Shown: in pieces, positions 2,742-22,830 of the stretch
How positions within the stretch are numbered: position 1 is the first letter of the stretch
Layout of the letters: every line of letters starts with the position of its first letter
Virus record (IMG/VR): IMGVR_UViG_3300008459_000416
Span: 1-23,456 of that record
From: a virus
Strand: one strand, 5' to 3'
DNA length: 23,456 nucleotides
Made by a program: the position numbers and the translations under genes
The notes under the pieces: model-generated
What the model was told of the DNA's origin: nothing
The model's input: only the letters and a program-made list of their open reading frames with translations
Databases searched by the model: none

Positions 2742-5700
2742 ATGACTTTACCAATATCAGGTTCTTTAGGTTTAAACGATATTAGAGTTGAGCTGGGTAT
2801 ACCATCTCAAACTCCTTTATCTTTAGAATCTGCTTCATTAGGACAATATGTACCTATTAATTATAATAGCCAATATTATCCTAACGCTACACCTCCATAT
2901 GCTGTTTCTGAATGGTATGGTTATAATCACTTAGCTAGTGCTAGTCCTTCAAGAACTCCTTCTTTAACTCCTACAGCTACACCTACTGTTACTCCAACAG
3001 TAACACCTACAGTAACACCAAGTAACACAGCTACTCCATCAAATACACCTTCAAATACTGTTACTCCAAGTAGTACTGTAACTCCAAGTAACACTGTTAC
3101 CCCTTCAAATACTGTAACACCTTCAAACACAGCCACACCAAGTAGTACTGTGACTCCAAGTGTAACTCCATCAAACACAGTTACACCTAGTAGTACAGTT
3201 ACTCCAAGTAGTACTGTGACTCCAAGTGTGACTCCATCTAATACTGTTACACCTTCAAATACTGTTACACCTTCAAATACAGTAACACCTAGTGTAACTC
3301 CATCAAATACTGTGACTCCAAGTAACACAGTCACACCTTCAAATACAACGACACCTAGTGTTACACCTTCAAATACTGTAACACCTAGTAATACTGTCAC
3401 TCCAAGTAGTACAGTAACACCTTCAAATACAGCAACACCTAGTGTAACTCCATCACGTACAGCAAGTGTAACTCCAAGTAACACTGCTACACCTTCAGTT
3501 ACACCTTCAGTAACAGCTTCTGTTACTCCTAGTAACACAGTTACTCCAAGTGTAACTCCATCTGTAACTGCAAGTATTACTCCAAGTAATACAGTTACTC
3601 CAAGTAATACTGTAACACCTTCAAATACTGTAACTCCAAGTGTAACACCTTCAAACACTGTTACACCTTCAAATACTGTAACACCTTCAAACACTGTGAC
3701 ACCAAGTAACACAGCAACACCTAGTGTAACTCCATCACGTACAGCAAGTGTAACTCCAAGTAATACAGCAACACCAAGTGTGACTCCATCTGTAACAGCT
3801 TCTGTCACACCATCTAATACTGTTACACCATCAGTTACTCCTTCAGTTACTGCGAGTATAACACCTTCAAATACTGTCACACCTTCAAACACTGTGACAC
3901 CAAGCAATACTGTTACTCCTAGTAATACAGCTACCCCAAGTGTAACACCATCAAATACAGTTACACCATCAAATACTGTGACTCCAAGTAACACTGCTAC
4001 TCCAAGTATAACACCTTCAAGAACTGCTTCTGTTACTCCAAGTATAACAGCAACTGTGACACCTAGTAATACTGTCACTCCTTCTAATACTGTCACACCA
4101 TCAAACACAGTAACACCTAGTATTACTCCTTCTAATACAGCTACTCCAAGTAATACTGTTACTCCAAGTAACACAGCTACACCAAGTGTAACACCAAGTA
4201 ATACTGTAACACCAAGTAACACAGTTACTCCTTCAAATACAGCTACTCCTAGTATTACTCCAAGTAGAACTGCTTCAGTAACACCAAGTGTAACAGCTTC
4301 AGTTACTCCAAGTAACACAGTAACACCTTCAAATACAGCTACACCAAGTAACACAGCTACACCAAGTGTAACACCAAGTAATACTGTAACACCAAGTAAT
4401 ACTGTAACACCAAGTAATACTGTGACACCAAGTAATACAGCTACTCCATCTATTACTCCAAGTAAAACAGCTAGTGTAACCCCTAGTAATACAGCTACAC
4501 CTTCAGTGACACCTAGTAGAACAGCAAGTGTAACTCCTAGTAACACTGTCACTCCTAGTATAACAGCTTCAATTACTCCTAGTAATACAGCAACACCAAG
4601 TGTGACTCCAAGTAGAACAGCTAGTGTGACACCTTCAAACACAGTTACTCCATCTATAACAGCTAGTGTAACACCAAGTAACACTGCTACACCTAGTATT
4701 ACACCTACAAGAACAGCTAGTGTAACACCATCAGCTTCTGTTACTCCTAGTATAACAGCTAGTGTGACACCTTCAAATACTGTCACTCCTAGTATTACAG
4801 CAAGTATAACTCCAAGTAACACTGCTACTCCATCAGTGACACCAAGTAGAACTGCGAGTATAACTCCATCAAATACAGTAACACCAAGTATAACAGCTTC
4901 AATTACTCCAAGTAATACAGCAACACCAAGTGTGACTCCAAGTAGAACAGCCTCTATTACTCCAACTGTTACTCCAAGTAATACAACTACACCAAGTGTG
5001 ACTCCAAGTAGAACTGCTTCTATTACTCCAACTGTTACTCCAAGTAACACTGCCACTCCATCAGTAACACCAAGTAGAACTGCTTCTATTACTCCAACTG
5101 TTACTCCAAGTAACACTGCCACTCCATCAGTAACACCAAGTAGAACTGCTAGTATAACACCTACAGTTACTCCAAGTAATACTGCTACTCCATCAATAAC
5201 ACCATCACGTACAGCAAGTATTACTCCAACAGTGACACCAAGTAACACAGCAACACCTAGTAGAACACCTAGTATTACACCTTCTAGAACAGCTTCTGTC
5301 ACACCAAGTAATACAGCTACTCCAAGTGTAACACCTAGTAGAACACCTAGTATTACACCTTCTACCTCTTGTATTTGTAATACACCAACAATTACTAGTA
5401 TAACAAATGCTGGCGGAGGCCAAATAAGTATAGCATTTAGTTTACCAAGTTGTGGAGGGTGTACAGCTACAAATATTCAATATTCAACAGACAATGTTAA
5501 CTGGGCTAATAGTAATACAGGTGGATGTACATCACCTAGAGTAGTAACACCACCATATTCAGCTCCATTCTATGTTAGAATACAACAAGTTGGTGCTTGT
5601 GGAACAAGTGCTTACTCAGCAGGTTATTATTATAATCCACCATCAGCTACACCTTCAGTAACACCAAGTATAACACCAAGTAAAACACCTAGTGTTACTC

Positions 5701-6116
5701 CATCACCATCAGTAGCTACTTATACTATTTCTTTCTATGGTGATCAATATACACCTGCTACAGGAAATGGATGGACTATAGTATATAGTACTGACTGTGT
5801 TAACTGGAGTGATATATATAGTGCTATGTATTGTCCAACTAATAATGGATGTGCTTACGCTGGTTATATTGATAATATAGCTTATAATACAACTCTTTAT
5901 ATAGCTGTTGTGGATTGTGCTTTTGGAATAGGTAATGGTATATCATTTGATCTTTCTTCTAATACAGATGCTTGTCCAGATACTAATAATTTCAGTTTTT
6001 GTGAATCAACAGACGGAAGTTGTTCTGGTAGTCCATATTCATTTACTGTTACACAAAATATAGATTTAGCTATTACAGTTAGTGTATCTAAATTTGGATA
6101 TGGTTATTGTTTTTAA
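2742..6116 (+). CDS. Mucin-like Thr-Pro-Ser repeat virion protein with Cys-rich Ig-like domains
   Basis: The protein is 1124 residues. Residues 1-66 form a small domain beginning MTLPISGSLGLNDIRVELG, an N-terminus I associate with phage virion proteins and probably an attachment domain. Residues ~68-873 are almost only Thr, Pro, Ser, Asn, Val, Ala, Ile and Arg in variants of VTPSNT, SVTPS and RTASVTPS. Such sequence is extended, non-globular and, if exposed, a candidate for O-glycosylation (inference). Residues 874-967 are a Cys-rich Ig/FnIII-like domain, 968-990 a short repeat linker, and ~991-1124 a second Cys-rich domain ending FGYGYCF. The start follows the previous gene by 27 nt. It is the only gene here with an AGGAG (2736-2740), but only 1 nt separates that from the ATG. 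No signal peptide is seen. Likely a long fibre or decoration on the tail or baseplate; function unproven. Confidence 0.75.
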   Translation: MTLPISGSLGLNDIRVELGIPSQTPLSLESASLGQYVPINYNSQYYPNATPPYAVSEWYGYNHLASASPSRTPSLTPTATPTVTPTVTPTVTPSNTATPSNTPSNTVTPSSTVTPSNTVTPSNTVTPSNTATPSSTVTPSVTPSNTVTPSSTVTPSSTVTPSVTPSNTVTPSNTVTPSNTVTPSVTPSNTVTPSNTVTPSNTTTPSVTPSNTVTPSNTVTPSSTVTPSNTATPSVTPSRTASVTPSNTATPSVTPSVTASVTPSNTVTPSVTPSVTASITPSNTVTPSNTVTPSNTVTPSVTPSNTVTPSNTVTPSNTVTPSNTATPSVTPSRTASVTPSNTATPSVTPSVTASVTPSNTVTPSVTPSVTASITPSNTVTPSNTVTPSNTVTPSNTATPSVTPSNTVTPSNTVTPSNTATPSITPSRTASVTPSITATVTPSNTVTPSNTVTPSNTVTPSITPSNTATPSNTVTPSNTATPSVTPSNTVTPSNTVTPSNTATPSITPSRTASVTPSVTASVTPSNTVTPSNTATPSNTATPSVTPSNTVTPSNTVTPSNTVTPSNTATPSITPSKTASVTPSNTATPSVTPSRTASVTPSNTVTPSITASITPSNTATPSVTPSRTASVTPSNTVTPSITASVTPSNTATPSITPTRTASVTPSASVTPSITASVTPSNTVTPSITASITPSNTATPSVTPSRTASITPSNTVTPSITASITPSNTATPSVTPSRTASITPTVTPSNTTTPSVTPSRTASITPTVTPSNTATPSVTPSRTASITPTVTPSNTATPSVTPSRTASITPTVTPSNTATPSITPSRTASITPTVTPSNTATPSRTPSITPSRTASVTPSNTATPSVTPSRTPSITPSTSCICNTPTITSITNAGGGQISIAFSLPSCGGCTATNIQYSTDNVNWANSNTGGCTSPRVVTPPYSAPFYVRIQQVGACGTSAYSAGYYYNPPSATPSVTPSITPSKTPSVTPSPSVATYTISFYGDQYTPATGNGWTIVYSTDCVNWSDIYSAMYCPTNNGCAYAGYIDNIAYNTTLYIAVVDCAFGIGNGISFDLSSNTDACPDTNNFSFCESTDGSCSGSPYSFTVTQNIDLAITVSVSKFGYGYCF
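2943..5360 (+). repeat. Thr-Pro-Ser coding repeat region, gene 1
   Basis: About 2.4 kb of degenerate short repeats encoding ~806 residues, built from 4-, 6- and 8-residue blocks (VTPS, NTVTPS, RTASVTPS). The protein is far more repetitive than the DNA. Pro-Ser is written variously as CCAAGT, CCTAGT, CCTTCA and CCATCA, and Thr alternates ACA and ACT, so most neighbouring units differ at synonymous positions. Confidence 0.95.
4944..5273 (+). repeat. Five tandem 66-nt units inside the Thr-Pro-Ser region
   Basis: A 22-residue unit starting RTASITPTVTPS recurs with its Arg codon at 4944, 5010, 5076, 5142 and 5208, exactly 66 nt apart each time. The copies around 5010-5141 are nearly identical in DNA, unlike the rest of the region. 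This points to recent unit duplication by slippage or unequal recombination. Confidence 0.9.
5361..5642 (+). repeat. Cys-rich Ig/FnIII-like domain, copy A
   Basis: Encodes residues 874-967 of the first repeat protein. Landmarks are STSCICNTP, LPSC, STDN.W, C.SPR, FYVRI.Q.G.CG.SAYS and YY.PP, with paired Cys compatible with disulphides. A second copy is at 22024-22305. Bases 5367-5398 are identical to 22030-22061 (32 nt). Confidence 0.85.
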
Positions 6117-6971: not shown

Positions 6972-7205
6972 ATGGTAACCATCATTATTATTTCTTTATT
7001 ATTAATTACAGCTGTTGTAGTTTTTAAAGCTTCTAAAACTAAAAATGAACAAAATTCTCATGTTGAAGATTTAGCTCCAGAATCAACTCCAGCTTTATCA
7101 ACAATTAAAGAATACACTGAAGCTGCTAAAAAATCAGCTAAAAAATCAACAACTAAAAAACCAGCTACTAAAAAACCAGCTGTTAAAAAAACAACTAAAA
7201 AATAA
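6972..7205 (+). CDS. Small membrane-anchored Lys-rich protein
   Basis: The protein is 77 residues. Residues ~2-18 (VTIIIISLLLITAVVVF) form one hydrophobic segment, a transmembrane helix or uncleaved signal anchor. A short polar linker follows. The last ~25 residues are Lys/Ala/Thr/Pro repeats (KKPATKKPAVKK) resembling the tail of histone H1. This predicts a membrane-tethered, strongly basic tail that could bind nucleic acid or acidic surfaces. It is the first gene after a promoter-like motif and is followed 3 nt later by the next gene. I do not recognise a family; low complexity makes any homology call unsafe. Confidence 0.7.
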   Translation: MVTIIIISLLLITAVVVFKASKTKNEQNSHVEDLAPESTPALSTIKEYTEAAKKSAKKSTTKKPATKKPAVKKTTKK

Positions 7206-7572: not shown

Positions 7573-9327
7573 ATGGCGCAAGAAACATTAATCTCACCAG
7601 GCGTTCTTACAAGAGAGAACGACTTATCTCAAATAACTCAGTTACCAGTGACCGTTGGTTTAGCTTTAGTAGGCCCTACTGTTAAAGGACAACCAAACAT
7701 TCCAACTGTAGTTACATCTTATAGTGATTATATTAACCGATTTGGTGGTTCATTTGTTAGTGGTGGTGCTACTTATGAGTTTTTAACTTCAGTAGCTGCT
7801 TATAACTACTTCCAACAAGGTGGTGAAACAATATTAGTAACAAGAGTAACTAGTGGTTCATTTACACCAGCATCTGCTAGTATTTGGACAAGTGGAAGTA
7901 CAGTATCTAATAATACAGCTTCATTTGTTCTTGAAACATTGAACTATGGTATTATGGCTAATAATACAAGTTCTATTTTAAGTAATGGATCATTATCAAG
8001 TGGTTCTTTAGAGAACGTGAAATGGGAAGTTAGAAATGTAAACACATCAAGTGGACAATTCACTTTATTAGTTCACCGTGGTGATGATAATACAAACACT
8101 CCTGTTATTTTAGAAACATATACAAACGTATCATTAGATCCAAACACTCCAAATTATATTGAAAATGTAATTGGTAACCAATCTAAAAATATTCAGTATG
8201 ATGCTGATATGGGTGGTTATTATATTCAAATTACTGGTGATTATCCAAATAATAGCCGTTACGTTAGAGTTAAATCTGTGAACAAACCAACTCCAAATTA
8301 TTTAAATAACGCAGGTGGTGTAGGTACAGATGCTGTTACTTTACAAAGTTACTCAGCTTCATTACCTCAAGCAGGTAGTGGTTCTTATGGTGGTTCATTT
8401 GCTGGTGCTTCTGGTAATGATATTCCTTATGTAGGTCCTACTTTATTTGGTAATATTGGATCAACAACACAAGGTTTAGTTAGTGATATGTATGTTACAT
8501 CTAGTAATATCTTAGCTAACAAAGATGAATATGATTATGAATTATTAATCACTCCAGGTTTGATCAAAAACCAACATACAGTAGTAGCTGACTTTATTCA
8601 AAATGCTGAAGAAAGAGGTGATTATTTCTATATTACTGACTTATGTGTTTATAACTCTTCAATTGGAACTCCAACAAACGTAGCTGCTGGTATGGACACT
8701 AACTATGCTGGTGCTTATTGGCCTTGGGTTCAAGTAGTATCTCAAGAAACTGGTAAATTAGTTTGGGTACCTACTTCAACTGTTATGGCTGGTGTTTATG
8801 CTTTCAATGATAATGTAAGTGCTGAATGGTTTGCCCCAGCAGGTTTAAACCGTGGTGGTTTAGGTGGTGTTATCCAAGCAGAAAGAAAATTATCTCCAAC
8901 TAACCGTGATAATTTATATGCTGGTAAAGTTAACCCAATCGCTACTTTCCCTAATGTGGGTGTTACAGCATTTGGTCAGAAAACATTACAACAAAAAGCT
9001 TCAGCTTTAGATCGTATTAATGTTCGTCGTTTATTAATTGCTCTTAAGAGATATATTGGTAACGTAGCTTCAACATTAGTATTTGAACAAAATACAACTG
9101 TAACAAGAAATAAATTCTTATCTCAAGTTACTCCATACTTAGAATCAGTACAACAACGTCAAGGTTTATACGCGTTCAAAGTAGTAATGGATGAAACTAA
9201 TAACACACCAGATGTAATTGATAGAAATCAGTTAGTAGGTCAAATTTATTTACAACCAACTAGAACAGCTGAATTTATCTTATTAGATTTCAACATCTTA
9301 CCAACTGGTGTAGAATTCGGTTCATAA
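7573..9327 (+). CDS. Contractile tail sheath protein (T4 gp18-like)
   Basis: The protein is 584 residues, within the usual range of phage sheath proteins. The N-terminus (MAQETLISPGVLTRENDLSQ) has the SPGV-x-x-x-E motif used for inter-subunit strand exchange. A variable beta-rich insert spans about residues 90-290. The conserved C-terminal sheath domain runs from ~430 to the end: NRDNLYAGKVNPIATFPNVG, RRLLIALKRYIG, then the terminal strand QIYLQPTRTAEFILLDFNI. The protein forms the contracting outer cylinder around the tail tube. The ATG at 7573 follows an A-rich leader without Shine-Dalgarno and is supported by the canonical N-terminus. The tube gene follows 38 nt later. Confidence 0.95.
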   Translation: MAQETLISPGVLTRENDLSQITQLPVTVGLALVGPTVKGQPNIPTVVTSYSDYINRFGGSFVSGGATYEFLTSVAAYNYFQQGGETILVTRVTSGSFTPASASIWTSGSTVSNNTASFVLETLNYGIMANNTSSILSNGSLSSGSLENVKWEVRNVNTSSGQFTLLVHRGDDNTNTPVILETYTNVSLDPNTPNYIENVIGNQSKNIQYDADMGGYYIQITGDYPNNSRYVRVKSVNKPTPNYLNNAGGVGTDAVTLQSYSASLPQAGSGSYGGSFAGASGNDIPYVGPTLFGNIGSTTQGLVSDMYVTSSNILANKDEYDYELLITPGLIKNQHTVVADFIQNAEERGDYFYITDLCVYNSSIGTPTNVAAGMDTNYAGAYWPWVQVVSQETGKLVWVPTSTVMAGVYAFNDNVSAEWFAPAGLNRGGLGGVIQAERKLSPTNRDNLYAGKVNPIATFPNVGVTAFGQKTLQQKASALDRINVRRLLIALKRYIGNVASTLVFEQNTTVTRNKFLSQVTPYLESVQQRQGLYAFKVVMDETNNTPDVIDRNQLVGQIYLQPTRTAEFILLDFNILPTGVEFGS

Positions 9328-9365: not shown

Positions 9366-9851
9366 ATGGCAGTATTAGACCCTACAGAAATAATGTTCAC
9401 CGCGTTTGAACCTAAAGTTCAAAATCGCTTCTTAATGTATATTGATGGTATTCCAACATACATGATTAGAAAAGCATCTTCACCTTCATTCAATGCTGGT
9501 GAGATTGTTTTAGATCATATCAACGTTTACCGTAAAGTAAAAGGTAAAGTTAGATGGAATGACATGACATTAGAACTTTACGATCCAGTAACACCAAGTG
9601 GTGCTCAAGCTGTAATGGAATGGGCTCGTTTAGCTCATGAATCAGTAACAGGCCGTGATGGTTACTCAGACTTCTATAAAAAAGACTTACGTTTAGACAT
9701 TTTAGGTCCAGTAGGTGATGTAGTAGGTGAGTGGATTATCAAAGGTGCTTATGTTAAAGAAGCTAACTTTGGTGAATACGATTGGGCAAATGAAGCTTAT
9801 GTAAGCATCAGTACCACAATCGCTATGGATTATTGTATCTTGAACTACTAA
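9366..9851 (+). CDS. Tail tube protein (T4 gp19-like)
   Basis: The protein is 161 residues, the usual size for T4 gp19-type tube subunits (163 in T4). Recognisable segments are FEPKVQNRFLMYIDGIPTYM near the N-terminus, the ASSPSF segment, GKVRWNDMTLELYDPVTPSG in the middle, and a C-terminal beta-strand region (EWIIKGAYVKEANFGEYDW, then ISTTIAMDYC). Subunits stack as hexameric rings to form the rigid inner tube for DNA passage. The gene lies directly after the sheath, the standard order in myophages, and is closed by the terminator at 9873-9902. Confidence 0.93.
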   Translation: MAVLDPTEIMFTAFEPKVQNRFLMYIDGIPTYMIRKASSPSFNAGEIVLDHINVYRKVKGKVRWNDMTLELYDPVTPSGAQAVMEWARLAHESVTGRDGYSDFYKKDLRLDILGPVGDVVGEWIIKGAYVKEANFGEYDWANEAYVSISTTIAMDYCILNY

Positions 9852-9872: not shown

Positions 9873-9902
9873 AAAGGAGTCGTCCAAATGGACGGCTTCT
9901 TT
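9873..9902 (+). terminator. Rho-independent terminator after the tail tube gene
   Basis: A 13-bp stem: 9873-9885 pairs with 9890-9902, with two G-T wobbles and an AAAT loop, G+C-rich in the upper half and followed by TATTTTTA. It begins 22 nt after the tube stop codon. The AAAGGAG in the 5' arm is part of the stem, not a Shine-Dalgarno sequence. Confidence 0.9.
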
Positions 9903-9943: not shown

Positions 9944-10702
9944 ATGGAACAAAAATTTAAATACCCAACAGAACAAATTGACTTACCTTCTAAAGGTTTG
10001 TTTTATCCACCTGAATCTCCTTTATCATCTGGAGTTATTGAAATGAAGTATATGACAGCTAAGGAAGAAGATATTCTTTCAAATTCTAACTTCATTCGTC
10101 AAGGTATTGTTATTGATAAATTATTACAATCAATGATTATAACTCCTATTAATTACAATGAATTATTAAATGGTGATAAAAATGCTATCTTAATAGCTGC
10201 CCGTATTTTAGGTTATGGTAAAGATTATGACTTTTTATGGACAGATCCAATCACAGGTAAAGTTGAAAAATTAACAGCTGATTTAACAACACTTGAACCT
10301 AAAGTGATTGATGAATCATTATTTACTAAAGGTAAAAATGAGTTTAATTTCCAATTACCTTTTTCTAAAGTAACAGTTACTTTTAGATTATTAACACATG
10401 GTGATGAACAAAAAATTGATAAAGAAATTAAAGGTTTAGAAAAAGTAAACTCTCAAGGTTCATATGATATTACTACTCGTTTAAAACATACTATTGTAGC
10501 TGTTAATGGAGATAGTGATTTAGCTAATGTTAGAGAATTTTGTGAAAATATGTTAGCTAGAGATGTTAAAGCATTACGTGAACATATCAGTAAAATAATG
10601 CCAGATGTTGATTTAAAAATTGATGCTACAAAATCTAACGGCGACGTAGTGGAGGGCGTTGACTTACCAATTGGGGTTAACTTTTTTTGGCCTGACGCCT
10701 GA
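9944..10702 (+). CDS. gp26-like baseplate hub / tail assembly protein
   Basis: The protein is 252 residues. The N-terminus has the family hallmark DLPSKGLFYPPESPLSSG followed by EMKYMTAKEEDILSN, as in T4 gp26-type baseplate proteins. The C-terminus ends in FFWPDA. In T4, gp26 is a hub component, and by position just before gp51-like and tape-measure sequences it may also act as a tail assembly chaperone (inference). The last 50 nt overlap a second reading frame in the +1 phase that lacks an ATG. A run of seven T at 10682-10688 encodes the Phe-Phe before Trp-Pro-Asp-Ala-stop. A shifted product of ~341-342 residues is therefore expected in addition to the 252-residue form. The start is ATG after an A/T-rich leader; a promoter motif lies 23 nt upstream. 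Confidence 0.8.
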   Translation: MEQKFKYPTEQIDLPSKGLFYPPESPLSSGVIEMKYMTAKEEDILSNSNFIRQGIVIDKLLQSMIITPINYNELLNGDKNAILIAARILGYGKDYDFLWTDPITGKVEKLTADLTTLEPKVIDESLFTKGKNEFNFQLPFSKVTVTFRLLTHGDEQKIDKEIKGLEKVNSQGSYDITTRLKHTIVAVNGDSDLANVREFCENMLARDVKALREHISKIMPDVDLKIDATKSNGDVVEGVDLPIGVNFFWPDA

Positions 10703-10970
10703 TTATAAAAAAGTAATATTAGATGAAATAATATTACTATGTTATCACAGCCAAGGTGGTTTTACACATGATGAAGTATATGATATGCCTATAAGATATA
10801 GACGTTATTATTTACAGAAATTAAGTGAAATGGCTGAAAAACAACAAGAAGAAATAGATAAAAAATTTGGTTCATCTAACAATAAAGAATTATCACAATC
10901 TAATAGAAAACCAAAAGATAAACCACCAATTCCAGATTTCGCATTTAAAGCAAGAGCGCCTAAAAAATAA
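10650..10970 (+). CDS. gp51-like tail assembly reading frame, probably made by ribosomal frameshift
   Basis: The frame is open from just after an in-frame TAG (10647-10649) to the TAA at 10968-10970. Its only early start codons are TTG (10659 and 10671), and the first ATG comes 42 codons later, inside the conserved part. The segment YKKVILDEIILLCYHSQGGFTHDEVYDMP followed by RYRRYYLQKL (shown here in parts of one stretch) matches the pattern I know from T4 gp51-like hub assembly catalysts. The C-terminus is charged and Lys/Pro-rich. With no start of its own, it is best read as a C-terminal extension of the 9944 gene, entered by +1 or -2 slippage on the T7 run, much like the G/GT chaperones of lambda-type phages. 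Independent initiation at TTG is possible but weak. Confidence 0.7.
   Translation, partial: WRALTYQLGLTFFGLTPDYKKVILDEIILLCYHSQGGFTHDEVYDMPIRYRRYYLQKLSEMAEKQQEEIDKKFGSSNNKELSQSNRKPKDKPPIPDFAFKARAPKK
10679..10690 (+). promoter_or_regulatory. Candidate programmed frameshift site
   Basis: The zero-frame codons are AAC TTT TTT TGG, with the T-run at 10682-10688. Slipping +1 (or -2) moves from ...GVNFF-WPDA-stop into ...FF-GLTPDYKK. Phe-tRNA re-pairs perfectly with TTT in either direction. The flanks are unusually G+C-rich for this genome, and GGCGT (10655-10659) could pair with ACGCC (10695-10699) around the site. Confidence 0.65.
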
Positions 10971-10977
10971 GGCGCTC
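10954..10977 (+). terminator. Hairpin overlapping a stop codon, possible weak terminator
   Basis: GAGCGCC (10954-10960) is a perfect inverted repeat of GGCGCTC (10971-10977). The 10-nt A-rich loop contains the TAA stop. There is no T-run afterwards (TCATATTTAT follows), so termination may be weak; mRNA 3'-end protection or processing is an alternative. Confidence 0.5.
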
Positions 10978-10978
10978 T

Positions 10979-11011: not shown

Positions 11012-13450
11012 ATGCCTACTCAACAAGAAGTACAATTACAACAAGCACTTAATGATCTTATTAAAGATCAAAGGGACTTGATTAAGGAGATAAATAATGA
11101 ATTAAAGGGAGGTGTTAACTATACTAAAGAAGTTAGAAAACAGTATGGTATTATAGAAAGTATTTCTGATAGATTAGTTGATGATGCTGAAGAATTAGTT
11201 GAGTTAGATATAAAACAGTTAGAAAAAGAACGAGTTAGAGCTACTAAAGCTTTAGAAAGCTTACAAACAGCTGGAAAAAGATTACTTACTGAGAAACAAC
11301 AAATAGAAGCCACACGAAAGTTAACTGATCAAGAACAAATTCTTTTAGCTGCTGCTAAGGAAGGATTCAAAAATGAGCTAGAAACTTTAAAATTAGTAAA
11401 TCAAAAAATTGACCAACAAAAATCATTAAATAAAGCTGTTGGTTTAACAGGTACTCTTCTTAAAGGATCAGCTGGTTTAATGGAAAAAATAGGCTTTAGT
11501 GGTACTATTGTTGAAGAATCTCTTAAAAAAGCTAAAGTAGCTGCTTATGATACAGCTAAAAATTTACAAGAATCAGGAAAGAATGTAGACACTTTAGGTG
11601 TTAAGATTCAAACAATGACTTCTGGTATAAAAAGTTTAGGTAAAAGTTTATTTAAATCATTTTCTGATCCTTTAGTATTATTAACAGCCCAAATAGCTTT
11701 AGTTAAGAAATTCTATGACTTATATGGTGGTGTTAATCAAAGAATAACTGATCAAGGTAAACAATTAGGTATAAATAAAGAGCAATCTCAAGTTTTATAT
11801 GAGAATGCTTTTAAATATGCTTCAGAACAAAGAAATGCTTTTGTAACTGAAGCTAGAATATTAGAAGGTAGAGCTAAATTAAATGAAGCATTAGGTACAT
11901 CAATTGTATTTACTGAAAAAGAAGCTATCACAGCTGAAAAATTATCTCATTATTATGGTATAAGTGAAGAACAAAATGCTCATTTAGCTACATTAGCAAG
12001 AGAAACAAATCAAACAAATGATGATATTTTAAATACAGTTATTAGAACTGCTAATGAACAGAAAAGACAATTTGGTGGCTCAATGAGTTATCAAAAAGTA
12101 CTACAAAAAGTAAGTTCAATTAGTGGTGATATATTAACTAGGTTTAAAGGTAATGTTGGTGAATTAGCTAAAGCTGTTCAACAAGCTGATAGATTAGGTT
12201 TAACATTAGATCAAGTAGATAAAATTGGTGAATCATTACTTAATTTTGAAACATCAATTGAAAGTGAACTTAAAGCTGAATTATTAACTGGTAAAGCAAT
12301 TAATTTAGAAAAAGCTAGATCAGCAGCATTATCAGGAGATACAGCTAAATTAACAAATGAAATATCTAAACAAGTTGGTAATATTCATGACTTTGAAAAG
12401 TTAAATACAATTCAAAGAAAAGCCTACGCTGAAGCATTCGGGATGACAGCTGGTGAAATGGGTGATATGCTTCGTAAAAAAGAACTTGAAGCTAAATTAG
12501 GAGTTGACATATCTAAATCAGCTACTGAAGCATTAGCTTTAGCAGATAAGAGAGGTATAACAATTGAAGAAAGCGTTAGAAAAGATCTTGAAGCAAAATC
12601 ATTAGCTGAATTACAAAAATATACTTTTGAAAAAATAAAATCTGTATTAGAAAGAATAGCCGCTGGTCCAATGGCTACAATATTTAAATACTTAGAAAAA
12701 GGACTTAAATTTGTAGAGAGTATATTTGGTGCTTTTAGTAAAATGACTGGTGGTGGTTTAGGTAATGCTTTAGGAGCTGCTATTTTAGGTGCTCCATTAT
12801 TATTAGCTACTACTAGATTAATGGCTGGTGGTTTAAAAGGATTATTTTTCCAACGTGGTACAGATCCAAATCCAATGGTTGTTCGTATGCAAGGAGCAAT
12901 TGGAGGAATGGGAGCTAGAACTGGATATACACCTGGTCTTGGATTTACAGGTGGAGCTTTACCAGGCGGTATAACACAAAATGCCGCTGGAAGATATATT
13001 GGAGCTAATGGTAGATTTGTATCAAATGCTTCTGTGACTGCTGCTCAACAAGCTCAAGGAGCTATGGGTATGAGAAATATGATGATAGGAGGAGGATTAG
13101 GTATGGCGGGTATGGCTTTAAATATGGTATCTTCAGGTATGGAACCAGGAGGAGCTAGAACAGCTGTTGGCGCTTTAGGCGGAGCAGCTACAGGTGCTGG
13201 TATGGGAATGATGTTTGGACCATGGGGAGCAGCTATTGGTGGTCTTGTGGGTGGTGTGTATGGATTAATTACTGAGATGAAAGCTGATAGAGAAAAAGAA
13301 GAAGCTGAAAAAGCCGCTAAAAAAGAAGCTGATAAGAAAACTAATGAATTATTAGAAAATTTAGCTATCAGACCAGTGAATATACAAGTAGGTCCTGAAA
13401 AAATGAACAACGCTTTAAATCAATATGGTAAATCAGTTTTAGAAAATTAA
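11012..13450 (+). CDS. Tape measure protein
   Basis: The protein is 812 residues and sets tail length while threading through the tube. Residues ~1-150 are strongly coiled-coil (QQALNDLIKDQRDLIKEI onward), and the middle is long-helical and charged. Two Gly/Ala-rich hydrophobic stretches, ~580-606 and ~690-752, look like the membrane-inserting segments common in tape measures. The C-terminal ~60 residues are charged and end NQYGKSVLEN. No lysozyme or peptidase motif is visible. Position after the gp26/gp51-like genes and before the baseplate genes matches T4 gp29. At ~0.15 nm per residue, the rule of thumb for tape measures, a tail of roughly 110-120 nm is expected (inference). Confidence 0.85.
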   Translation: MPTQQEVQLQQALNDLIKDQRDLIKEINNELKGGVNYTKEVRKQYGIIESISDRLVDDAEELVELDIKQLEKERVRATKALESLQTAGKRLLTEKQQIEATRKLTDQEQILLAAAKEGFKNELETLKLVNQKIDQQKSLNKAVGLTGTLLKGSAGLMEKIGFSGTIVEESLKKAKVAAYDTAKNLQESGKNVDTLGVKIQTMTSGIKSLGKSLFKSFSDPLVLLTAQIALVKKFYDLYGGVNQRITDQGKQLGINKEQSQVLYENAFKYASEQRNAFVTEARILEGRAKLNEALGTSIVFTEKEAITAEKLSHYYGISEEQNAHLATLARETNQTNDDILNTVIRTANEQKRQFGGSMSYQKVLQKVSSISGDILTRFKGNVGELAKAVQQADRLGLTLDQVDKIGESLLNFETSIESELKAELLTGKAINLEKARSAALSGDTAKLTNEISKQVGNIHDFEKLNTIQRKAYAEAFGMTAGEMGDMLRKKELEAKLGVDISKSATEALALADKRGITIEESVRKDLEAKSLAELQKYTFEKIKSVLERIAAGPMATIFKYLEKGLKFVESIFGAFSKMTGGGLGNALGAAILGAPLLLATTRLMAGGLKGLFFQRGTDPNPMVVRMQGAIGGMGARTGYTPGLGFTGGALPGGITQNAAGRYIGANGRFVSNASVTAAQQAQGAMGMRNMMIGGGLGMAGMALNMVSSGMEPGGARTAVGALGGAATGAGMGMMFGPWGAAIGGLVGGVYGLITEMKADREKEEAEKAAKKEADKKTNELLENLAIRPVNIQVGPEKMNNALNQYGKSVLEN

Positions 13451-19671: not shown

Positions 19672-22600
19672 ATGTATATATCATCATCACAAATAGTAGA
19701 AACAGGATATACACAAGGGAATCAGTTTGTTATATCATATAATCAACAACCTTATAAAGGTTTTTATCATAAAGATAATCAAGGAAGATATTGGTCTGAT
19801 AAAGAACATACTGTTAATTCTTTTTTATTAACAACTACTACTCCAACTCCTAATTTTTCATTTGAGGCTATGACTAAAAATAGTCCTGTTGGAGTTAATT
19901 ATACTAAACGTTTCACTGATGATTTAAGTACACCGTTACTTAAAAGTGATTTTATATTTCCAACTGAGGATAATTATACTAAAGGATTTTTTGTTAGATA
20001 TTTTGCTCAATTAAAAAATTCAACTCAACCATATATTATTGAAGTAAATTATAATACTTATAATACTTTTTCTAAAGATAAAAATATTACTAATCATTAT
20101 TTGATTACAACTTTATTATGGCAATTAACTGGTCCTATAAATGATGTTTATAACAATAATATAAGAACAACACCAGGAATTAAAGATACAAATTTACGAT
20201 CAATTCAAGATACAGAAAGAACATTTCCAAATTTATCATCATATTTAATAGACCCATTTCAATTTGCTAGAATACCAGCAGATGAAAACACTAATAGAGT
20301 TCAACCTCAACCATATGTTGTTGACTATGGAGTTATTCGTGAAGAAATAGATTTAATATTACCTACACCTCCAACTACTCCATCTAATTCACCAACACCA
20401 ACTGTTACTCCAAGTGTTACTCCAACTATTAGTATAACACCATCTAATACAGCTAGTATTAGTGTGACACCTTCTAATACTGCAACACCAACTCCTTCTG
20501 TAACATCAAGTATTAGTGTAACACCATCACAAACAGCTAGTACTACACCATCTATAACTTCAACACCTTCAGTAACTCCTGGAAATACAGCTAGTGTTAC
20601 TCCAAGTATAACATCTACACCAAGTATAACACCTAGTAACACACCTAGTGTTACTGCTTCATCTACTCCTTCAGTAACTCCATCAGTAACAGCAACTGTT
20701 ACACCATCTAACACAGCCACACCTAGTAACACACCTAGTGTTACTGCCTCTGTTACTCCATCAAATACAACAACACCTAGTAATACACCTAGCGCGACTG
20801 CTTCTGTTACTCCAAGTATAACACCAACTCCTTCTATGACTGCTGGTGCTTCAGCAAGTGTGACTCCAAGTATCACTGTTACACCTAGTAACACAGCCAC
20901 ACCTAGTGTGACTCCAAGTAGAACTGCTAGTGTGACTCCATCAAATACAGCAACGCCTAGTGTGACTCCAAGTAGAACCACTAGTGTGACTCCATCAAAT
21001 ACAACAACACCTAGTGTGACTGCTTCTACTACACCTAGTAACACAGCCACACCTAGTGTGACTCCATCTATAACAGCTTCAGTTACACCTAGTAACACAG
21101 TTACACCTAGTGTAACTCCAAGTAATACAGTTACTCCATCAATTACTCCAAGTGTGACTCCTTCAAGTACAGCTACTCCAAGTATCACACCTACACCAAC
21201 AATTACACCTACATCAACTCCATATCCTCCAGATTGTGGATTAGTATCAGGTAGCTTACCTTGGTATTCTTATTTTGATACTGCTCCACAAGGTACATTA
21301 ACTAATAATACTAGTACAACAATGTATGTTTGGTTAGGCGCAGGAGTTGCTCCAGGTACAAATGGTAACTTTAGTACTAATAGTCCATTTAGTTCATTAT
21401 CAGTAGCAGCTGGTGAAGGATTTGTTAATTATAGTTCAACATATTTAACATTATCTCCTGCTCAATCTTGGCCTTATAGTATAACTAGAACATCAGGTAA
21501 TGCGACAACATTAGATGTCAATTTATATTGGTCTACAAGTACATCAGGTACTAAAGTAGCTTTAAATTGTAATCCACCATCACCATCAACTTCACCTTCT
21601 CCAAGTGTGACGTCTACTCCAAGTACAACACCATCTGTTACTCCAAGTAATACTGCTACTCCATCTGTTACTCCAAGTAATACATCATCTGTAACACCTT
21701 CAGTTACACCTAGTAATACAACTACACCTTCAGTTACACCAAGTGTCACAGCTAGTGTAACACCAAGTAATACAACAACTCCATCAGTAACACCTTCAAG
21801 AACAGCTAGTGTAACTCCAAGTAACACAGTAACACCATCATCTACTCCAAGTGTAACACCTTCAATAACAGCTAGTGTGACTCCAAGTAATACTGCTACT
21901 CCAAGTATTACACCATCAAGAACAGCCTCAGTTACTCCAAGTGTGACTCCAAGTGTAACACCAAGCAACACAGCTACACCTAGTGTGACACCAAGTAACA
22001 CAGCTACTCCAAGTGTTACTCCATCTACTTCTTGTATTTGTAATACACCAACAATTACTAGCATAACAGACGCTGGTGGAGGAAATGTTAATGTTTACTT
22101 TACTTTACCTAGTTGTGGTGATGCTTGTTATTCTACTACTATACAAAAATCAACAGATAATTCAACATGGAGTAGTGATACATCAGGATGTAATTCACCT
22201 AGAACAGTATCATTAATAGCTGGTGGACCAACATATTTTAGAATAAACCAAGCTGGAAAGTGTGGAATAAGCGCTTACTCAACTAGTGTTTATTATGAAC
22301 CTCCAACTCCAACTCCAAGTGTAACACCAAGTAATACAGCTACACCAAGTGTAACTCCTACAATTACATCTTCTGTTACACCAAGTATAACTCCTTCTGT
22401 GACTCCAAGTAATACAGTAACACCAAGTGTTACACCATCAGCTAGTGTAACACCTTCTGTCACACCTAGTATTACACCTTCTCAATCAGGAGCATCAACT
22501 AAAACTGTTTATTGGCAAGCTTCATTAGGAGGATGTGCTGGAGCTTCATATCAAGTACTTAAAAACGGAAGTTCAATATCTTCAGGTGGTATTGATGCTA

Positions 22601-22830
22601 ATGGATCATTTACTGTTATTGCTGGTGATACAATAGAAATATCTCATACTACTGGTCCAAAAGCTGTTAGTGTTTGTCAATCAGCTACAGCTGCTATTGG
22701 TACAACACAAGGAGGAGGTGAATATGCCTTTGATTCAAATATTGGTCAAAATGCTTCAGCTACAGCTACATATACAATAACTTCAGGTACTGCTTCAACA
22801 ATATATGCTGATGCTGGAGCTGCTATTTAA
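19672..22830 (+). CDS. Second mucin-like Thr-Pro-Ser repeat protein with four globular domains
   Basis: The protein is 1052 residues arranged as beads on a string. Residues 1-230 form a non-repetitive N-terminal domain (with YHKDNQGRYWSDKEHTVNSF), presumably the baseplate anchor. Thr-Pro-Ser repeats run 231-520. A ~116-residue domain follows (521-636), beginning DCGLVSGSLPWYSYF. More repeats run 637-784, then the Cys-rich Ig/FnIII-like domain copy B (785-878), a short repeat linker (879-937), and a C-terminal domain (938-1052) beginning around KTVYWQASLGGCAGASYQV. The N- and C-terminal domains differ from those of the repeat protein at 2742. Likely a surface-exposed adhesive or spacer fibre; carbohydrate binding by the terminal domains is plausible but unproven. 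The ATG is 5 nt after the previous stop, without Shine-Dalgarno. Confidence 0.75.
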   Translation: MYISSSQIVETGYTQGNQFVISYNQQPYKGFYHKDNQGRYWSDKEHTVNSFLLTTTTPTPNFSFEAMTKNSPVGVNYTKRFTDDLSTPLLKSDFIFPTEDNYTKGFFVRYFAQLKNSTQPYIIEVNYNTYNTFSKDKNITNHYLITTLLWQLTGPINDVYNNNIRTTPGIKDTNLRSIQDTERTFPNLSSYLIDPFQFARIPADENTNRVQPQPYVVDYGVIREEIDLILPTPPTTPSNSPTPTVTPSVTPTISITPSNTASISVTPSNTATPTPSVTSSISVTPSQTASTTPSITSTPSVTPGNTASVTPSITSTPSITPSNTPSVTASSTPSVTPSVTATVTPSNTATPSNTPSVTASVTPSNTTTPSNTPSATASVTPSITPTPSMTAGASASVTPSITVTPSNTATPSVTPSRTASVTPSNTATPSVTPSRTTSVTPSNTTTPSVTASTTPSNTATPSVTPSITASVTPSNTVTPSVTPSNTVTPSITPSVTPSSTATPSITPTPTITPTSTPYPPDCGLVSGSLPWYSYFDTAPQGTLTNNTSTTMYVWLGAGVAPGTNGNFSTNSPFSSLSVAAGEGFVNYSSTYLTLSPAQSWPYSITRTSGNATTLDVNLYWSTSTSGTKVALNCNPPSPSTSPSPSVTSTPSTTPSVTPSNTATPSVTPSNTSSVTPSVTPSNTTTPSVTPSVTASVTPSNTTTPSVTPSRTASVTPSNTVTPSSTPSVTPSITASVTPSNTATPSITPSRTASVTPSVTPSVTPSNTATPSVTPSNTATPSVTPSTSCICNTPTITSITDAGGGNVNVYFTLPSCGDACYSTTIQKSTDNSTWSSDTSGCNSPRTVSLIAGGPTYFRINQAGKCGISAYSTSVYYEPPTPTPSVTPSNTATPSVTPTITSSVTPSITPSVTPSNTVTPSVTPSASVTPSVTPSITPSQSGASTKTVYWQASLGGCAGASYQVLKNGSSISSGGIDANGSFTVIAGDTIEISHTTGPKAVSVCQSATAAIGTTQGGGEYAFDSNIGQNASATATYTITSGTASTIYADAGAAI
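20362..21231 (+). repeat. Thr-Pro-Ser coding repeat region, gene 2 segment 1
   Basis: About 290 codons of VTPSNT/SVTPS-type repeats. The residue composition matches that of 2943-5360, but with more Ser-Thr dipeptide variants and without a regular 66-nt array. Confidence 0.92.
21580..22023 (+). repeat. Thr-Pro-Ser coding repeat region, gene 2 segment 2
   Basis: About 148 codons between the DCGLVSG domain and the Cys-rich Ig-like domain. The last units before the Cys-rich domain resemble those preceding the equivalent domain in gene 1. Confidence 0.9.
22024..22305 (+). repeat. Cys-rich Ig/FnIII-like domain, copy B
   Basis: Residues 785-878 of the second repeat protein. It shares STSCICNTPTITSIT, AGGG, LPSC, STDN, C.SPR and CG.SAYS with copy A at 5361-5642 and has the same 94-residue length. 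The first 32 nt of the conserved block (22030-22061) are identical to 5367-5398. Confidence 0.85.
22306..22482 (+). repeat. Thr-Pro-Ser linker, gene 2 segment 3
   Basis: About 59 codons of the same repeat type joining the Ig-like domain to the C-terminal domain. The corresponding linker in gene 1 is only 23 codons. Confidence 0.88.

Follow-up and report, generated by a model that had tools for sequence, protein, structure and literature searches.

A T4 gp26/gp51-family tail assembly chaperone gene with two products, very probably made by programmed +1 ribosomal frameshifting

The window analysed in this study, a stretch of 23,456 nucleotides of viral DNA, carries a series of tail genes on its forward strand, in which two overlapping open reading frames lie between the tail tube gene and a putative tape measure gene. 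The features of this locus are as follows:

7573..9327 (+), tail sheath gene (PF17482, E=1.3e-12; phrog_23, E=9e-70)
9366..9851 (+), upstream tail tube gene (phrog_4542 tail tube, E=4.4e-23)
9944..10702 (+), first frame (TAC-N), start ATG at 9944, T4 gp26-like short chaperone of 252 aa (PF12322, E=2.7e-8; phrog_150, E=1.5e-13)
10647..10649 (+), TAG upstream of the overlap, closing the +1 frame
10650..10970 (+), +1 open frame, stop codon TAA at 10968-10970; the predicted fusion has 341 aa
10681..10692 (+), proposed slip site C TTT TTT TGG CC, with the slippery run at 10682-10688
10700..10702 (+), TGA ending the unshifted product
10953..10978 (+), terminator-like hairpin with the stop codon of the fusion in its loop (consensus match only)
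11012..13450 (+), putative tape measure protein gene, 812 aa, next downstream of the chaperone gene

The second frame lies in +1 relative to the first frame and, as originally noted, is open only from 10650 and lacks an ATG ahead of the conserved part. Its earliest in-frame ATG is found at 10785, within the 93-aa C-terminal domain (GLTPDYKK...) encoded by 10689-10967. Other codons that might serve as starts are TTG at 10659 and 10671 and CTG at 10692, and GGAGGG is present at 10651-10656. The product of the downstream gene has a glycine-rich hydrophobic C-terminal part, and the gene in the same position is annotated as tape measure in the phages immuto and LIS04, in agreement with the predicted location upstream of the tape measure gene. 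Overlapping frames between a tube gene and a tape measure gene, the second of them without its own start, are characteristic of gpG/gpGT-type chaperone genes.

Several additional features were noticed in the window. A second terminator-like hairpin is present at 9873-9902, such that hairpins flank the chaperone unit on both sides, and the conserved C-terminal ARAPKK of the fusion may partly reflect the hairpin at 10953-10978. Two very long Thr/Pro/Ser repeat proteins are encoded at 2742-6116 and 19672-22830 (with units such as ACACCAAGTAATACAGTA), the first of which contains an antisense open frame of 791 aa (2927-5302, minus strand) that is probably a by-product of the repeats. A tail fibre with a terminal Peptidase_S74 (endosialidase chaperone) domain is located at 3-2714, and 6972-7205 encodes a small protein of Lys/Ala/Pro repeats (ATKKPAKKKTTKKP-like), similar to DNA-binding basic tails.

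The first frame is a member of the T4 gp26/gp51 family, its product scoring 34.2 bits against PF12322 (curated cut-off 24.5). When the N and C parts were modelled separately, the N domain was predicted with a pLDDT of 91.7, and the best matches of this model in a comparison with predicted viral proteins were T4-like baseplate-hub assembly proteins, including a protein of Bacillus phage SP-15 and gp26 of Aeromonas phage 25. No relative was found in the PDB by sequence or by fold. The C domain was modelled as three helices with moderate confidence (72), and the second frame had no match in PHROGs. Its match to DUF6760 (PF20546) was weak (E=0.002 in the window and 1e-5 in a relative), and membership of this family was rejected at 18.6 bits, below the cut-off of 27 (26.0 for the best relative). 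A plasmid search for injection-system homologues found none.

To place the second frame within this family, we compared it with the two T4 proteins, each of which matches PF12322 and phrog_150. While gp51 reaches the end of the PHROG family, gp26 ends about 47 positions earlier, and gp51 carries approximately 48 extra C-terminal residues. A profile of 37 fusions was colinear with that of nine gp51 sequences through both domains (HHalign E=2.8e-4, probability 41%); with HMMER, the C domain compared with the gp51 C-terminus gave a non-significant score of 0.2 bits. Homology between the C domain and the gp51 C-terminus is therefore stated here as plausible. Judged by these alignments, gp26 would be the counterpart of the unshifted product and gp51 that of the fusion. 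Since gp51 itself consists of the N domain followed by a short C domain, the second frame would match the tail of gp51 and not the whole protein. The original prediction that a gp26-like and a gp51-like frame are joined here thus holds for the first frame and needs to be revised for the second.

Read in the first frame, the sequence of the overlap is AAC TTT TTT TGG CCT GAC GCC TGA. The run consists of exactly seven T (10682-10688), as had been noted before, and is the only T run of at least seven in the window, in which CTTTTTTTGG occurs once. Across 33 representatives, the ratio of observed to expected synonymous change in the last seven codons of the N frame was 0.04, compared with a mean of 0.80 for the gene, a reduction that is explained in part by double coding (CCT, GAC). 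If the shift takes place after them, as proposed, neither the third positions of the Phe codons nor the base preceding the run are constrained by the second frame. Among 87 distinct loci of the N-terminally keyed scan described below, which are related and hence not independent trials, the first slip codon was TTT in all 87 and the second was TTT in 78 and CTT in nine. The predicted conservation of the T-run was thereby borne out, and the +1 relation was kept in those relatives whose run is interrupted. The base before the run was T in only two of these 87 related loci, compared with 52.5 expected from the amino acids. As a T in this position would turn the site into the -1 slippery heptamer T TTT TTT, its scarcity looks like selection against the wrong shift. 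The slip site, close to where the first frame ends, is therefore constrained in sequence, as in gpG/gpGT-type genes. The locus does not have the form of a canonical -1 heptamer frameshift (X XXY YYZ in phase with an open -1 frame), as the stop-covering -1 frame in the window has only 6 codons. The codon TGG, which would occupy the A site, is not rare in the window (7.9 per 1000). Some 30 bases before the slip site, the codons GTA GTG GAG GGC (10644-10657) are synonymously conserved in the close clade, even though GAG is rare in the window (4.1 per 1000).

Searches among annotated phages retrieved relatives in Flavobacterium, Microcystis, Listeria, Bacillus, Streptococcus and Agrobacterium phages as well as in uncultured huge phages. 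In six annotated relatives, the downstream domain was found in +1 with the overlap at the same place. A scan of IMG/VR with the window protein yielded 80 loci, all with the CTTTTTTTGG run, and every locus of sufficient length had an open +1 frame encoding the same kind of protein. Because one pattern of this first scan spanned the junction, a second scan was keyed on the N-terminal motif only; here, 92 of 94 loci carried the C domain in the +1 frame and none carried it in another, the two misses being one truncated contig and one very distant sequence. The arrangement recurs in well over 100 related loci, far above chance. Past the overlap, divergence by codon position was 0.223/0.174/0.326, and therefore the +1 frame is under protein-level constraint, so that both overlapping frames are coding. 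Rhodothermus phage RM378 has TCC TTT TTT TGG (CTTTTTTTGG) together with a +1 extension. In the deposited annotations, the C frame is given as 36 aa from an internal ATG in immuto (L002) and as 39 aa in SP-15 (L006), and is lacking in LIS04 (L005).

The original prediction had allowed for either +1 or -2, and the latter, which would add one extra Phe, has to be considered first among the alternatives. Such shifts occur in Mu-like chaperones, and the seven T of the window taken alone would permit one, as P-site TTT at 10685-10687 could re-pair at 10683-10685; indeed, some synonymous re-pairing at -2 is available somewhere in the overlap in 135 of 146 distinct overlaps. The two directions differ in their predicted junctions, ...GVNFFGLTPDYK for +1 and ...NFFFGLT for -2. 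Synonymous P-site re-pairing at +1 was possible in all 146 distinct overlaps, whereas the other 11 offered no option at -2. Informative relatives are those in which the run is broken, i.e., GGC TTC TTT TGG in L090-L104, AGC TTT CTT TGG in Flavobacterium phage immuto, AAC TTT CTA TTC in LR756508 and GAA TTC TTT CGT in a Streptococcus phage. At the slip codons TTC TTT TGG, TTT CTT TGG and TTT CTA TTC, re-pairing is possible only at +1, yet the +1 relation of the frames is kept, and re-pairing of TTT to TTY (or CTT to TTT) at +1 is possible in all. Thus, +1 is the most likely direction, and on these sequences the only one open to all relatives of this clade; the +1 part of the prediction was retained and a -2 shift was considered improbable.

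Another explanation is that the second frame is an independent gene, translated without any frameshift from an internal start or by re-initiation at TTG (10659 or 10671) or CTG (10692). These TTG codons do exist, GGAGGG is present at 10651-10656, and in two related contigs, L101 (2214-2531) and L105 (2214-2501), the C domain is indeed a separate gene with its own ATG just after the first stop codon. Across the relatives, 118 of 154 distinct +1 frames have no ATG, 60 lack all of ATG, GTG and TTG, and in 53 the open stretch ahead of the slip site spans just 1-3 codons. The expected absence of ATG was therefore found in most frames and did not extend to L101 and L105. Both contigs are nested inside the +1 clade, and their decayed slip site reads TTC CTT TGG CCA GAT in L105 and TTC TTG TAT CCT in L101, while their nearest relatives (approximately 65% identical) keep the +1 site TTT CTT TGG CCT GAC. 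Decay of the slip site thus coincides exactly with the presence of a start codon, and the invariant TTT TTT and the avoided preceding T would be left unexplained by an independent gene, which we regard as very unlikely. In our reading of these sequences, a slip site that has become dispensable is lost, and the two contigs represent a natural switch from a frameshift to a separate gene.

Slippage of RNA polymerase on the T-run, giving mixed mRNAs that are read normally, is extremely unlikely: although T or A runs can cause it and a T7 is present, a seven-base run is short for transcript slippage, and the interrupted runs (TTTCTTT, TTCTTTT and TTTCTA) keep the same frame relation. Homopolymer runs are error-prone, but an error of sequencing or assembly, or a gene that is simply broken, has a negligible probability, being refuted by the recurrence of the arrangement in more than 100 distinct loci, as well as in phages that were isolated and sequenced. 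The identical record L047, also of 23,456 bases, may stem from the same assembly as the window.

The surroundings of the slip site had also been proposed to be G+C-rich with a possible GGCGT/ACGCC stem. Both are present in the sequence: G+C content is 52% in 10640-10702 compared with 32% in the window, a value reached by 78 of 23,393 windows of the same size. Pairing of the stem across relatives did not exceed what is expected from column composition (pairing in 401 of 595 cells, a score equalled or exceeded by 247 of 2000 shuffles), and folding of 32 relatives gave a mean z of about -0.7 and no shared fold. The stem is therefore not a supported element. A Shine-Dalgarno-like stimulator was rejected as well, as the GGGG before the site is a consequence of the codons for Ile-Gly-Val and is missing from Mel-JY01 and others.

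Based on these comparisons, it is very probable that this tail assembly chaperone gene gives two products by programmed +1 ribosomal frameshifting, as originally predicted for a 252-residue protein and an approximately 341-residue fusion. Most ribosomes would read TTT TTT TGG CCT GAC GCC TGA and release the 252-aa gp26-like N form. In a minority, Phe-tRNA would sit on TTT in the P site and, with the next codon (TGG) in the A site still undecoded, slip +1 onto the overlapping TTT; the ribosome would then read GGC CTG ACG CCT and complete the 341-aa fusion, whose added 93-aa helical domain would be the counterpart of the C-terminal domain of T4 gp51. We infer slippage in vivo, its rate and peptidyl-tRNA-Phe as the slipping species from these patterns of conservation. 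By analogy with lambda gpG/gpGT, and judging from family and gene position, the N form would serve to coat the product of the neighbouring, putative tape measure gene, and the fusion to recruit tube subunits.

In arrangement, with no sequence similarity claimed, the locus resembles lambda gpG/gpGT and its counterparts in P2, SPP1 and HK97: a short overlapping pair lies between tube and tape measure genes, and slippage shortly before the first frame ends provides a minor part of the product with an additional C domain. Those systems mostly use -1 at X XXY YYZ, whereas the site here is +1 at C TTT TTT TGG. A bacterial parallel is the +1 site of E. coli prfB, CTT TGA (CUU UGA C), where a P-site YUU tRNA likewise slips onto overlapping UUU/UUC, and some relatives have CTT TGG. 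In prfB a stop codon occupies the A site and a close Shine-Dalgarno-like sequence acts as stimulator, in contrast to the sense codon TGG and the lack of a detectable stimulator here. The influenza PA-X site UCC_UUU_CGU has been shown to be +1 (PMC3498833); P-site UUU slips onto overlapping UUC there, and the Streptococcus phage relative also reads TTT CGT, although PA-X is eukaryotic and no stimulator was found for the phage sites. The tail chaperone of the archaeal myovirus HSTV-2, likened here by description, has a very likely +1 frameshift in the same position (PMC5009743).

According to the latter, a major review, G-T frameshifting is widely conserved except in T4 (PMC5009743). Vladimirov et al. 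(2022) reportedly identified the T4-like chaperone genes as gp26/gp51 and argued for a mechanism other than frameshifting in T4-like phages. The predicted tie between T4 gp26/gp51 and the G/GT scheme is thus supported by the family match, but the link of gp26/gp51 to chaperones, like tail-chaperone frameshifting itself, had already been published. What looks new is the conserved +1 class at CTTTTTTTGG, of which our literature search found no description, a result that is not proof of absence.

Other members of the family are organized differently. In the cyanophages P-SSM2 and S-PM2, Delftia phage PhiW-14 and Agrobacterium phage Atu_ph07, homologues share the junction, but their C frame lies in -1 and T TTT TTC occurs in phase, and the same was observed in a group of huge phages; -1 GTTTTT sites have been described in Vandenendeviridae and Andersonviridae (PMC12846349). 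Campylobacter phage CP220 has separate short and long genes. In T4, gp26 (similar to the N form) and gp51 (similar to the N+C fusion) are encoded by two separate, divergently transcribed genes with no frameshift. The comparison of relatives suggests how T4 arrived at this state. On balance we favour the view that gp26/gp51-type chaperones are produced by means of a widespread and previously undescribed class of bacterial +1 sites (C TTT YTT TGG), which differ from the similar prfB site in that the A-site codon is a sense codon and no stimulator can be detected, and which are deeply conserved from Flavobacterium phages to RM378. In this view, +1, -1, a separate C gene and full duplication (T4) replaced one another, and T4 is a derived case and no exception.

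Many members of the gp26/gp51 family thus carry a frameshift sequence signature, and since its +1, -1, separate-gene and duplicated-gene forms occur in one family, the origin of the T4 arrangement becomes testable. The 93-aa domain, whose frame is missed or truncated in deposited annotations, can now be named. Moreover, a highly conserved +1 site of bacterial viruses that has no evident stimulator would be a useful model for what sets +1 slippage.
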